Assembly: GCF_028613635.1 (NCBI RefSeq)
Contig: NZ_JAQRMY010000002.1
Location: forward strand, 310,001-374,000
Origin: Devosia sp. ZB163
GTDB taxonomy: Bacteria > Pseudomonadota > Alphaproteobacteria > Rhizobiales > Devosiaceae
Length of the DNA: 64,000 bases
Direction of reading: 5' to 3'
Of this stretch, positions 49,441 through 53,884 are shown one piece after another. Position numbers and translations under genes: made by a program. The notes under the pieces are model-generated. The model saw nothing but the letters and a program-made list of their open reading frames with translations, made no database searches and was not told the DNA's origin. Numbering within the stretch: the first letter of the stretch is position 1; each line of letters opens with the position of its first letter.

Positions 49441-50238
49441 TCAGTTGCACATGTAGCCGTCGGGCGTGGAGTCGTCGGGCCAGCAGCCATCCGGAATTGG
49501 CTCCCCGCCGCTCTGTCCCTCGATCAGGCTCGCCGTGTTTGTCGGCCGCTCGAAGCCGCGCTGGAAACACTGCTTTGCGTCCTCGACCCGGAACTGCCCG
49601 AGCAGGGGCGCCTGCGACACGGCATAGATGAAGTCGGCCTTGATGTCCTCGCGGGCGCTGCCCTTGAACTGATCGGTATGGCCGAGGATCTGCGACTGCG
49701 TCATGTCGAACTGCCCGAGTTCGCACGTGTCGCTCAGCGTCACGCACTGCTTGTCCTTGTTACAGAGGATCGCCTCGCCGTGGTACAGCAGCACGCGCGT
49801 ATCGGCGCTGTCGACGTTGAAGTCGAACGAGGTGCCGCGCACCCCGATCGTGCCGGTCGGCGTGGTGATGATGTAGCGGTCCTTCGGCGCCCGGCCGGTG
49901 GTGAAGCGGAACGTCCCGGACAGCGCGTTGATGGCGAACTTGCCCGCCGAATCGTCCTGGCGCAGCAGGTAGTCCTCGATCAGCAGCGCCGAGTTCGGGC
50001 CGACGACGAGTTCGGTCTGGTCGGTGAACTTGATCTGCACGAGGCCGGCCGAGCCGGTGATCACGCGGTCGCCGATGAACACGTCGGCGCCGACCGTCAG
50101 CACCTTGGTGTCCGTCTTGCTCTCGAGTTCGGCGGAGGGCTTCACGCCCAGTGCCGTGCCGCTGGCGGCGAAGGTAGGGGAAAGGGTAAGCGCAAAGAGC
50201 GCCAGGGCGAGGGGGGATCGCCAGATCAGGAAGTGCAT
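49441..50238 (-). CDS. Secreted FecR-domain protein, paralog 2
   Basis: Encodes 265 residues, clearly paralogous to the gene at 46504-47340: signal peptide (LALALFALTLSPTFA), AASGTALGVKP shared, VLTVGADVFIGDRVITG, ELVVGPNSALLIEDYLLR (nearly identical) and TPTGTIGVRGTSFDFNV. It also shares the cysteine pattern ILCNKDKQCVTLSDTCE. Its tail ends CWPDDSTPDGYMCN, not the His cluster of paralog 1. There is no sigma factor neighbour. Confidence 0.82.
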   Translation of the reverse strand: MHFLIWRSPLALALFALTLSPTFAASGTALGVKPSAELESKTDTKVLTVGADVFIGDRVITGSAGLVQIKFTDQTELVVGPNSALLIEDYLLRQDDSAGKFAINALSGTFRFTTGRAPKDRYIITTPTGTIGVRGTSFDFNVDSADTRVLLYHGEAILCNKDKQCVTLSDTCELGQFDMTQSQILGHTDQFKGSAREDIKADFIYAVSQAPLLGQFRVEDAKQCFQRGFERPTNTASLIEGQSGGEPIPDGCWPDDSTPDGYMCN

Positions 50239-50446
50239 ATGCGTCCTCGGCTATGCGTACGAACTATGGATATCGCCCGGCCCCCCGGCGGGTGCGATTG
50301 ATGGCCTCCTACACAAGGCGAAACGGGGGAGCCAGCCCCAAAAACCGGGCTCTCGCACGCTGGTACGCCCGCCTGTTCAGGAGCTGTTCAGTTTGGCGAC
50401 CGTGCCCGCTGCCCGCCGCCGACGATCCGATATGCACGGGAGGTAC
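50239..50446. other. Divergent intergenic region, FecR paralog 2 / Gdx
   Basis: Leftmost part of the 308-base gap up to the exporter start. It holds the promoter of the FecR gene and no recognisable gene. The rest of the gap is the exporter promoter and riboswitch, listed separately. Confidence 0.4.
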
Positions 50447-50475
50447 TTCACTCCCGTCGGCGACCGCCCTATATC
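50447..50475 (+). promoter_or_regulatory. Promoter of the guanidine riboswitch-Gdx unit
   Basis: TTCACT (50447-50452) and TATATC (50470-50475) with a 17-base spacer. The expected transcription start near 50482 is exactly where the first riboswitch hairpin begins. Confidence 0.5.
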
Positions 50476-50482
50476 AGCCCGC

Positions 50483-50528
50483 GTCGGGGACGACCCCGGC
50501 ACTTCCCACCCATTGCGGGACGGCCCGC
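50483..50528 (+). ncRNA. Guanidine-II riboswitch (mini-ykkC)
   Basis: Two small hairpins with the class-defining ACGR loops: CGGGG-ACGA-CCCCG (50485-50498, extendable by a G-T and a G-C pair to 50483-50500) and GCGGG-ACGG-CCCGC (50515-50528), joined by a 14-base C/A-rich linker. The second stem ends five bases before the AAGGA ribosome site of the exporter, the usual geometry for translational control. In this class guanidinium makes the two loops dock and frees the ribosome site. The exporter behind it fits. Confidence 0.88.
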
Positions 50529-50546
50529 GCTTGAAGGACTGTTCCC

Positions 50547-50861
50547 ATGGCATGGGTCTATCTCGCCGCGGCCGGTATCCTCGAAATCGTCTGGGCCATC
50601 GGCCTCAAGTACACCGAGGGCTTCACCCGGCTGACGCCGTCGGTCATCACCATCGGTGCCATGATCGCCAGCGTGGCCCTGCTCGGCATCGCGCTGCGCG
50701 ATCTGCCGGTCGGCACCGGCTACGCCGTCTGGACCGGTATCGGCACCGTGGGCACCGCGATCCTGGGGATGATCATCTTCAACGAGCCCGCCACTGCCTT
50801 CCGGCTGGCGAGCATCGGCCTCATCGTCGCCGGTATTGTCGGGTTGAAGCTGGTTTCGTAG
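50547..50861 (+). CDS. SMR-family guanidinium exporter Gdx (SugE)
   Basis: Encodes 104 residues and four transmembrane helices of the small multidrug resistance family. The SugE/Gdx subtype marks are the glutamate in [21 protein letters not shown] (Glu13), the GFTRLTPS loop and the [10 protein letters not shown] motif. This subtype exports guanidinium in exchange for protons, not broad quaternary amines. The riboswitch directly upstream supports the assignment. AAGGA lies nine bases before ATG 50547. Confidence 0.93.
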
Positions 50862-51320: not shown

Positions 51321-53591
51321 CTAGACAATGAAGTCGGCGCTGCTCAGCGCTATATGGCCGCGCAGCTCGATCTGGAAATCGGCCACCCCATCGCCGTCGA
51401 CGTCACCCTCGATCAGCGTGATGGCGCTCTGGTCGTTCGCCACGTCCTGCCGCGCGATCAACTCGCCAGCCACGCCGCTGAAGCTGTCGGTGAAGGCAAA
51501 TGCCTGATTGCCGCTCCGGGTGCTGTCGGCGTCGATCCCGCCCAGATGGAGCAGGTCGGCGCCGCTGGCGAAGTCCCTGACCACATCACGTGACGCCCCG
51601 CTTCCCACCTCGCCGAGGTCCCGGAAGTCGAACCGGTCGCTGCCCTCGCCACCCTCGAGGATGTCGCGCCCGAGCCCGCCATCGAGCGTGTCGTTGCCGA
51701 ACCCTCCCCGCAGCGTGTCGTCTCCCTCGAGCCCAAGCATCAGGTTGTCGGCAAAGCTCCCGGTCAGCACGTTGTCGAGCGCGTTGCCGGTGAGGCGCCA
51801 GTTCCCCTCGCCATGGAGCTGCAGGTTCTCGATCTCGGCGAACTGGCGCAGGTCCCAGTGCGTCTCCGCCCGGATGGTGTCGACGCCGCCGGTGTCGATG
51901 ATCGTGTCGTCGCGGTCGTTGAGCACGTAATACGTGTCGTTCCCGTCGCCGCCCTCGAGGATGTCGCGACCCCTCAGGCTCTTGAGCTCGTCATTGCCCC
52001 CGTAGCCGATCAGGTGGTCGTTGCCCCGCCAGCTGATCAGGATGTCGTTGCCGCTGCCGCCATGCACCGTCTGGTCGGCGTTCCCGTCGATCCGCGTCAC
52101 CCCCTCGGTCGGCTTCTGGCCATAGATGATGTAGGCCGCCCCCTTGCGCTCCACGCCTTCCTTCAGCGCCCCCGGCGCGCCGACGATCAGGTCGTCGAAC
52201 CCGTCGCCGTTGAAGTCGCCGATGCCGTCGACCGCCTCCGCCATGTCCGCTGGTGCGCCATCGATGCGGAAGCCGTTGCTGCCGTCGAGCGCCGTGACGT
52301 CGATGCCCGGCGTGTACCAGGTCGATTTCCCGTAGACGACGTAACTGGTGCCCGGCTGGTCGACGTTCCAGGCCACGCTGACCACGAGGTCGTCGAAGCC
52401 GTCGCCGTTGAGATCGCCGGCCGACGAGACCGTCGAACCCGAATAGTCCGCGCTCGCATCGCCGCGGATGACGAAGCCATTGCGGCCGTTGAGCTGGTCC
52501 GCGTCGTAGCTCGGCCGGAAGTTGCCCGCCCGGCCGAAGACGACGTAGGATTCCCCGGCCTCGCGGTGGCCGTGCGGGTCGGCGCGCGTCGCGCTGACGA
52601 TGAAGTCGGCGTAGCCGTCGCCATTGACGTCGCCGGCATCCGAGATCGCGGACCCTAGCCCGTCCTGGTAGTCTGCCCCGTCGACCCGGAAGCCGCTCTC
52701 GCCGTCGACGGTGCGCACGTCGAAAACCGAACCGAAGCCATCGGCCTTCCCCAGCACCACATAGGCCGAGCCCGCTTGGCTGGAGAAATCGGGTGAAAGC
52801 TGCGGGCTGGCCACAGCGAAGTCGTCGTAGCCGTCGCGGTTGATGTCGCCGATGCCGCTGAGGGCCCATCCGAGGTTTCCCTCGCCGGCGATGGCAAACC
52901 CGTTGCTGCCATCCAGCTGGTCGAGCGCGATGTCGGCATCAGCGCCTTCCGCACCCCCGAAGACGACGAAGGCGGGGTAGGGCGCCGCTGCATCCCAGGT
53001 ACTCTGCACCCCGATCAGCAGGTCGTCGTAGCCGTCCCCATTGATGTCGCCAGCGCTGGAGACAGACCTGCCAGCACCGTTGAAGTCGCCGGTTCCCGTG
53101 ATGCTGAAGCCGTTGCTGCCATCGAGATCGGCCGTACCGATGCTGGCCTCGAACCCATCGACCTGCCCGTAGATGACATAGGTGGCGCCCGGATAGCGCA
53201 GGATGCCGTCGCCACCGGTACCGCTCAGCATCAGGTCGTCGATGCCGTCCCCGTTGACGTCGCCCGCATCGGAGACGTCGAGCCCGAGGTTGCTGTAGGG
53301 GATATCGCCCTCGATGCGGAAGCCGTTGCTGCCATCGAGGCTGGCGAGGTCGAAGCTCGCCTCGAACCCGGAGGTACTGCCGAAGACGACATATGCGGTC
53401 CCACCACCCAATACGTCCCCGGAGCCGGCGTTGCGCGCCGAAACGATCACATCGGCGAGCCCGTCGCCGTTGACGTCGCCAACCCCGGCCACATCCACGC
53501 CGACCTGATCGCCGAACGCCACCCCGTCGAGTCGAAAGCCGTTGCGGCCGTCGAGATCCTCGACGCTGAACACTGCCGGAAACGTCGGCAT
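51321..53591 (-). CDS. FG-GAP/RTX secreted protein (seven-repeat propeller plus calcium-binding tail)
   Basis: A 756-residue acidic exoprotein. The N-terminal 500 residues contain seven near-regular repeats of about 65-70 residues, each with L-D-G-x-N-G-F-x-I-x-G followed by G-D-x-N-G-D-G-x-D-D and a Y-V-V-x-G end. This is the integrin-alpha FG-GAP blade with a calcium loop, and seven blades would close one propeller. RTX nonapeptides follow (HGGSGNDILISWRGNDHLIG, EGGDGNDTYYV, RGGFGNDTLDGGLGRD). A C-terminal domain with LSSADFIV at the very end suits a type I secretion signal, and there is no Sec signal. No type I exporter is in the window. Possible roles are adhesion or calcium-stabilised surface display. 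Confidence 0.85.
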   Translation of the reverse strand: MPTFPAVFSVEDLDGRNGFRLDGVAFGDQVGVDVAGVGDVNGDGLADVIVSARNAGSGDVLGGGTAYVVFGSTSGFEASFDLASLDGSNGFRIEGDIPYSNLGLDVSDAGDVNGDGIDDLMLSGTGGDGILRYPGATYVIYGQVDGFEASIGTADLDGSNGFSITGTGDFNGAGRSVSSAGDINGDGYDDLLIGVQSTWDAAAPYPAFVVFGGAEGADADIALDQLDGSNGFAIAGEGNLGWALSGIGDINRDGYDDFAVASPQLSPDFSSQAGSAYVVLGKADGFGSVFDVRTVDGESGFRVDGADYQDGLGSAISDAGDVNGDGYADFIVSATRADPHGHREAGESYVVFGRAGNFRPSYDADQLNGRNGFVIRGDASADYSGSTVSSAGDLNGDGFDDLVVSVAWNVDQPGTSYVVYGKSTWYTPGIDVTALDGSNGFRIDGAPADMAEAVDGIGDFNGDGFDDLIVGAPGALKEGVERKGAAYIIYGQKPTEGVTRIDGNADQTVHGGSGNDILISWRGNDHLIGYGGNDELKSLRGRDILEGGDGNDTYYVLNDRDDTIIDTGGVDTIRAETHWDLRQFAEIENLQLHGEGNWRLTGNALDNVLTGSFADNLMLGLEGDDTLRGGFGNDTLDGGLGRDILEGGEGSDRFDFRDLGEVGSGASRDVVRDFASGADLLHLGGIDADSTRSGNQAFAFTDSFSGVAGELIARQDVANDQSAITLIEGDVDGDGVADFQIELRGHIALSSADFIV

Positions 53592-53884
53592 CCCCACCTC
53601 CCAGATGACCACGTCCGCCCAGCGTCGGCCTATCCGTCAAACCTCGGAACGACGCCGAACGCATGGGCGGCCACCGCTCGGCGCATGGCGGAGCGGAAAA
53701 ACCCTGATGCACGGGCGCGGAGCAGGGACGATCGTGCCTGAAAAAGCGGCACCGGCACGCGCCGCCACTCGCCATGCCCTTGCCCCAAGCAGCAGCCATG
53801 ATGGCTCCCATCAAAGCAAATCATCGGGCATGCACCTGACAACCGACCCCGCCTTCCTCTAGATTGCGCGCGGAGAATATGCCC

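Follow-up and report, generated by a model that had tools for sequence, protein, structure and literature searches.

A Guanidine-II-gdx unit in Devosia sp. ZB163 and the recurring association of its riboswitch class with a second ATP-synthase subunit a

Guanidine riboswitches are widespread, and fluoride riboswitches control fluoride-sensitive enzymes such as enolase. The closest described counterpart of the unit reported here is the Guanidine-II (mini-ykkC) riboswitch controlling sugE/gdx, a class reviewed as a translational on-switch (PMC12186494, excerpt). In E. coli, the gdx leader carries an ACGA and an ACGG loop, and the Gdx protein performs guanidinium/H+ antiport (PMC13064478, excerpts). 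Na+-I riboswitches control ATP-synthase genes (PMC9971707, excerpt), and the physiological significance of guanidine itself has been called elusive (PMC12186494, abstract).

We analyzed a 64,000-nt stretch of the Devosia sp. ZB163 genome (the window), which holds a unit with the same aptamer, gene and layout as the Guanidine-II-controlled sugE/gdx system and nothing essential that differs from it. Its features were as follows:

50446..50474, + strand: predicted sigma-70-type alphaproteobacterial promoter, CTTCAC-N17-CTATAT, with a predicted start at ~50482 (sequence; S. meliloti consensus)
50482..50528, + strand: Guanidine-II riboswitch aptamer (Rfam RF01068, 45 bits, full length)
50483..50500, + strand: P1 hairpin, 7 bp, loop ACGA (fold, Rfam alignment, covariation in 29 chosen family copies)
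50515..50528, + strand: P2 hairpin, 5 bp, loop ACGG (fold, Rfam alignment)
50534..50538, + strand: ribosome binding site AAGGA (sequence; some of it paired in the fold predicted for 50482-50555)
50543..50546, + strand: UCCC directly 5' of the AUG; candidate switching partner that can pair with the 5' arm of P2 (fold of 50482-50555; leader counts)
50547..50861, + strand: gdx, predicted sugE-type SMR guanidinium exporter, 104 aa (NCBIfam NF008512, 143.2 bits; PDB 6wk5, 108 bits; Pfam PF00893)

At Rfam gathering thresholds, the only match in the 64-kb window was RF01068 at 50482-50528 (+), a full-length match whose score of 45 bits compares with a gathering score of 32 (E 1e-5). Folded alone, the element formed two hairpins joined by a 14-base linker, one with an ACGA and the other with an ACGG loop, the pair also seen in the E. 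coli gdx leader (PMC13064478, excerpt); its fold energy was unexceptional relative to shuffled sequences (z -1.47). Among 29 copies chosen from 91 places in the family, which precede SMR and other target genes, ACG was invariant in both loops (29/29) and both-side changes occurred at 9 of 13 base pairs. A single copy of the 91 (G061:C1:3176454) carried ACGU in place of ACGR in its second loop. The preliminary description had read the two hairpins and the linker from the bases, had assigned them to a class already known, and had staked this on a covariance-model match and on the conservation of ACGR loops in related leaders. The isolated fold and the Rfam alignment bear out the structure, and both the match and the conservation were found. 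These results confirm that the unit at 50482-50861 is a real but ordinary example of a Guanidine-II riboswitch before a Gdx-type SMR exporter. The class of the riboswitch is established by sequence and structure, and its ligand is presumably guanidinium.

The encoded SMR protein scored 143.2 bits with the NCBIfam SugE model NF008512 (cutoff 126), and its best PDB match was 6wk5, which we take to be Gdx-Clo, with 108 bits versus 49 for EmrE. Residues E13, W16, S42, Y59 and W62 were present when read by position. This SugE equivalog score and these residues are shared with the Gdx-Clo/SugE exporters, whereas the window protein is a Devosia sequence for which export is predicted from sequence. 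W16 is conserved among Gdx proteins, and proteins of the Qac subtype have Gly or Ala at this position (PMC7695847, excerpt). W16, the top family match and the top PDB match all point to Gdx, so the Gdx label was chosen over Qac and a Qac-type multidrug role for the gene was rejected. The combination G10-E13-W16-S42-Y59-W62 was found in 20 of the 21 SMR proteins that were framed, out of 22 genes behind family Guanidine-II copies, and the one exception was framed from a wrong start. The evidence supports assignment to the Gdx subtype of SMR, with guanidinium as the putative substrate. The SugE/Gdx-type identity proposed in the preliminary description holds, as does its preference for guanidinium export over the default label of quaternary ammonium resistance, though the two labels are not mutually exclusive.

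A second SMR gene of the genome (G000:C3:607210-607485, minus strand) had Qac models as its best matches, at scores under the cutoffs, and contig C3, on which it lies, carries none of the genome's three Guanidine-II copies. Within the window, a FecR-domain protein is encoded at 49441-50238 (-), divergent from the gdx unit, and a 763-aa FG-GAP protein with RTX calcium-binding repeats at 51321-53612 (-).

Upstream of the aptamer, CTTCAC (50446-50451) and CTATAT (50469-50474) are separated by a 17-base spacer. This arrangement fits the S. meliloti sigma-70 consensus, CTTGAC-N17-CTATAT (PMC2573895, excerpt), and from its position the transcript is predicted to begin at about the first aptamer base. 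A promoter starting at the first hairpin had been proposed from the sequence; the predicted promoter agrees with this, and a scan for E. coli-type promoters missed it. Inspection by eye of 13 SMR leaders placed CTATAT 6-8 nt 5' of the aptamer in six, among them that of the window. AAGGA begins five bases past the second stem, exactly where the ribosome site had been placed, and the ATG of the SMR gene follows at 50547.

When the folded segment was extended past the start codon (50482-50555), the predicted minimum-energy structure broke P2. The P2 5' arm and loop paired with CUGUUCC before the AUG, and the CC of the P2 3' arm paired with the GG of the ribosome site; a 125-nt leader fold differed in detail from this 74-nt fold, and with energies within ~1.5 sd of shuffles these predicted folds are weak evidence. 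In a comparison of leaders, several of which had been given a wrong start codon, TCCC occurred within the final 9 nt before the start in 8/17 SMR leaders (1.4 expected from shuffling) and 8/19 PACE leaders (1.4 expected), P2 was retained in the predicted folds of 2/17 SMR and 8/19 PACE leaders, and the ribosome site was at least half paired in 16/16 SMR and 13/15 PACE leaders where a site was found. The leader folds fit a translational on-switch, which is probably how these leaders act; for the window leader this is a prediction from folding.

In E. coli, gdx became constitutive after a 20-bp deletion covering P2 (PMC13064478, excerpt), meaning that the off state requires the P2 region. A kissing dimer between the E. 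coli P1 and P2 hairpins was found in a mixture with homodimers (PMC7544219, excerpt), which supports the switching model but is no proof of it for the intact leader. The inferred direction of switching is that, without guanidinium, the P2 5' arm would pair with the bases before the AUG and the ribosome site would be partly buried. Binding of guanidinium to the two ACGR loops would hold P1 and P2 together and free the ribosome site, Gdx would then be made, and guanidinium would be exported in exchange for protons.

The genome contains three RF01068 matches in total, all above the gathering score. The two further copies lie on the minus strand, 1.2 kb apart (L006 8756-8710 and 7515-7471). Behind the copy at 8756-8710 comes a ChaA-like CaCA antiporter (PF01699; ChaA-model score 194.6 bits, under the cutoff of 505), and the copy at 7515-7471 precedes a 57-aa hydrophobic ORF followed by a 249-aa ATP-synthase subunit a, here called AtpB2. 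AtpB2 scored 344 bits with the F0F1 subunit a model NF004482 (cutoff 225); another subunit a gene is present in the same genome on contig C1, and no c-subunit gene adjoins AtpB2. The gdx unit would thus be one member of a Guanidine-II regulon together with the ChaA-like antiporter and the small ORF-AtpB2 unit, a regulon that would join export with changed handling of cation and proton flow. We consider it very probable that the window unit belongs to such a regulon, with a translational switch and export by Gdx; the gene families concerned are observed directly. In this genome, the hydrophobic ORF between the switch and AtpB2 (L006 7278-7451, minus strand) matched neither Pfam nor NCBIfam families. 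Equivalents of 57-59 aa occur in five relatives, with size and pattern kept.

Across the family, RF01068 was detected in 70 of 101 genomes. A tblastn census of downstream genes, covering 91 of the 92 RF01068 places (G088:C2:717943 was left out), showed each of them to precede a gene from one of seven families: PACE (PF05232, chlorhexidine efflux; 39/91), SMR/Gdx (22/91), DUF1989 (11/91), AtpB2 (7/91), CaCA antiporter (6/91), guanidine carboxylase (3/91) and ACT-domain (3/91). Beyond the family, 25 order-level Guanidine-II loci were inspected. PACE was the commonest target in the family sample. Chlorhexidine is a bis-biguanide, so the PACE proteins behind Guanidine-II may export guanidinium. 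Locus L244, from another family, has three PACE genes in a row. The ACT-domain protein (PF10000, PF13840) behind Guanidine-II in G005, G017 and G042, all of one genus, is an unusual target.

A PF00119 search found subunit a in 98 of 101 family genomes. A second copy scoring above 200 bits was present in seven of them, from three genera, and in each of the seven it lay behind a Guanidine-II riboswitch above the gathering score; weaker second copies (137-155 bits; G013, G018, G074) are outside this 7/7 count. In G006, AtpB2 directly follows a switch and is itself followed by a second switch (31.8 bits, slightly under the gathering cutoff) with an SMR gene. At the order level, an AtpB2 profile matched 9 of 397 genomes at 1e-105, comprising two known family members, four new AtpB2 and three ordinary subunit a. 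All four new AtpB2, from two further families, lay behind Guanidine-II, with an SMR gene following two of them, and Guanidine-II was absent upstream of the three ordinary genes. Since so few order genomes match the profile, AtpB2 is a minority trait (6/397 at 1e-105), in a count whose threshold lies near the best ordinary scores, so that divergent AtpB2 may be missed. The AtpB2 search of the class (385 genomes, 1e-105) returned the own genome only, as did a phylum search of 398 genomes with the exact DNA pattern for R-L-F-[A/G]-V-M-L-A-G-H.

We then scanned relatives, one genome per species, with AtpB2 peptide patterns that included Val179, and the best 80 of 236 relatives yielded 73 AtpB2 loci and 7 ordinary loci. 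The motif RLFAVMLAGH was present in 71 of the 73, with one further change in the other two, and the 7 ordinary loci read RLFANMLAGH. A switch model built from the 29 family copies, applied up to 330 nt upstream, detected Guanidine-II before 72/73 AtpB2 loci vs 0/7 ordinary loci among these best 80 of 236; for ordinary subunit a, absence of the switch was thus checked at 7 relatives' loci and the 3 order loci. With one c-subunit query, AtpE was found nearby in 0/73 AtpB2 loci vs 7/7 ordinary loci. Among the bearers of AtpB2 are records from Devosia, Shinella, Rhizobium, Agrobacterium, Ensifer, Mesorhizobium, Aminobacter, Bosea, Kaistia and Brucella (former Ochrobactrum). The single AtpB2 locus of the 73 without a detectable Guanidine-II upstream is L164 (Shinella daejeonensis).

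It is extremely improbable that this link reflects chance or the way in which the loci were collected. The scan did select the best 80 of 236 relatives by AtpB2 peptide patterns, but the riboswitch was in none of the search patterns, the 7/7 second copies that a plain Pfam model had found also have it, and the background of the search was ~0.015 matches per 1600 nt. These results show that the association between AtpB2 and Guanidine-II is a recurring one. In 19 AtpB2 loci inspected outside the family, 107-267 nt separated the end of the switch from the gene, an interval that held no consistent ORF, and masking of the Shine-Dalgarno sequence is therefore not directly readable at AtpB2.

AtpB2 is a distinct kind of subunit a. 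A tree built from 37 AtpB2 and 28 ordinary sequences had one branch (100/98 support) separating the two groups, and an ordinary subunit a identity for AtpB2 was ruled out because another copy is present in the genome and the two kinds group apart. An alternate N-ATPase type was likewise rejected (344 bits with the standard F0F1 model vs 61 with the altF1 model). Residues were compared between 80 AtpB2 and 44 ordinary sequences, after four relatives' loci identical to family loci had been dropped. The essential arginine (position 175), His184, Gln229, Glu161 and Glu222 were kept in 80/80 AtpB2. At position 179, four residues past the arginine, Val replaced Asn in 80/80 AtpB2 vs 0/44 ordinary sequences, all 44 of which have Asn; this count is partly due to selection, since Val179 was in the search pattern of the relatives scan, which does not touch the seven family copies, Met225 or Ala107. 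At position 225, four residues from Gln229, Met replaced Val in 80/80 AtpB2 vs 0/44 ordinary sequences, and at position 107 Ala replaced Phe in 80/80 vs 1/44. In an alignment to subunit a of 5dn6, presumably the Paracoccus enzyme, the arginine matched and Val179 stood opposite Asn; we take positions 175, 179 and 229 to correspond to E. coli R210, N214 and Q252. The dN/dS ratio of AtpB2 was 0.02-0.11 in 9 gene pairs, indicating purifying selection. By its score and essential arginine, AtpB2 qualifies as a member of the F0 subunit a family, and it may assemble into F0.

A lone, functional-looking subunit a that is changed beside the arginine and controlled by guanidine most simply suggests that guanidinium disturbs the F0 a/c interface and that a tolerant AtpB2 takes the place of the ordinary subunit a. 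We regard this replacement as a serious possibility, though one that falls short of being probable. Guanidinium, which has the chemistry of an arginine head group, would imitate the essential arginine where subunit a meets the c-ring carboxylate, and the pattern of residues agrees with this, since the arginine, His184 and Gln229 are kept in 80/80 yet Val179 and Met225 are changed nearby. The low dN/dS in all 9 pairs points the same way, as does the lack of a c-subunit gene in the 73 loci, from which it follows that AtpB2 would have to use the ordinary F0. Among described inhibitors, bedaquiline acts at the c-ring as a mimic of the subunit a arginine, and mycobacterial F1Fo is weakly inhibited by an acylguanidine compound (PMC8873251, excerpts), and a 1963 paper on guanidine and alkylguanidines in mitochondrial energy transfer is cited in PMC5609876 (excerpt). 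However, not all arginine mimics can inhibit F1Fo, and steric fit at the a-c interface selects only certain guanidine-like chemotypes (PMC8873251, excerpt), an argument against free guanidinium having a simple effect. AtpB2 is, moreover, only one of several membrane proteins of the regulon and is missing from most genomes with the riboswitch, and Val179 was part of the relatives-scan pattern, though not of the family or order searches.

The loss of an invariant polar residue beside the arginine, together with the co-regulation of AtpB2 with proton-coupled exporters, would also suit a subunit that replaces the ordinary one and slows or blocks proton flow through F0, saving the gradient during proton-coupled export. 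We think such a brake unlikely, as the arginine, His184, Gln229, Glu161 and Glu222, needless in a blocked channel, are kept in 80/80.

If AtpB2 is instead a tolerant replacement, its logic would be that of the fluoride riboswitches, in which spare copies of a toxic ion's targets are made in response to that ion; here the candidate spare is one ATP-synthase subunit and the ion is guanidinium. Na+-I riboswitches likewise place a cation riboswitch before ATP-synthase genes, but those encode Na+-driven complexes or components (PMC9971707, excerpt), whereas AtpB2 is a lone subunit a. Excerpts of the same paper mention ATP synthase under Na+-I riboswitches only, and those of PMC12342949 name guanidine riboswitches and AtpB in unrelated sections. 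Among the literature matches listed, none linked a guanidine riboswitch to a lone subunit a, a CaCA antiporter or PACE, and an earlier mention is possible in the 2017 guanidine-II paper and in supplements, which lay outside the search; the link was also not found in excerpts of PMC12186494, PMC7266159, PMC7736828, PMC3766115, PMC12335538 and PMC13064478. The matches listed for octylguanidine and ATP synthase gave no lead. A guanidine-controlled spare subunit a that recurs across genera makes the F0 motor a candidate target of guanidine, and AtpB2 and the ordinary subunit a form a natural variant pair for studying the a/c interface. If the reading is correct, target replacement inside a rotary motor would stand alongside export by Gdx.

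The other switches around AtpB2 bear on a further explanation. Run over 853,898 bases of relatives' loci at E up to 0.1, the switch model gave 117 matches, all at sensible places: 72 before AtpB2, 16 before a CaCA antiporter (16/16 antiporter loci), 19 before an SMR gene following AtpB2 (19/24 such loci), and five at each of two further positions in Agrobacterium-type loci. With the queries used, neither the antiporter nor an SMR gene was found in 33/73 AtpB2 loci. The ChaA-like antiporter, AtpB2 and MrpF might together answer an ionic imbalance caused by guanidinium or by its proton-coupled export, with guanidinium not acting on F0 at all. In favor of this explanation, which we hold to be possible but on the doubtful side, the antiporter has its own switch in 16/16 loci where it precedes AtpB2, and an MrpF-like gene (PF04066, L166) lies beside a minus-strand switch in Agrobacterium-type loci; it leaves unexplained, however, the supply of just one F0 subunit whose interface residues are changed.

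The MrpF-like gene is an orphan at L166 2763-3056 (-), adjoining the minus-strand Guanidine-II, and MrpF is another single subunit of a proton-linked complex. Minus-strand switches also occur in L176, L182, L188 and L206, with PF04066 tested in L166 only. Where the switch lies far from AtpB2, a short hairpin-like stretch, TCTCG...GAGAT followed by ATG, recurs directly 3' of the aptamer (L158, L160, L168, L185, L189, L193, L135 and L136).
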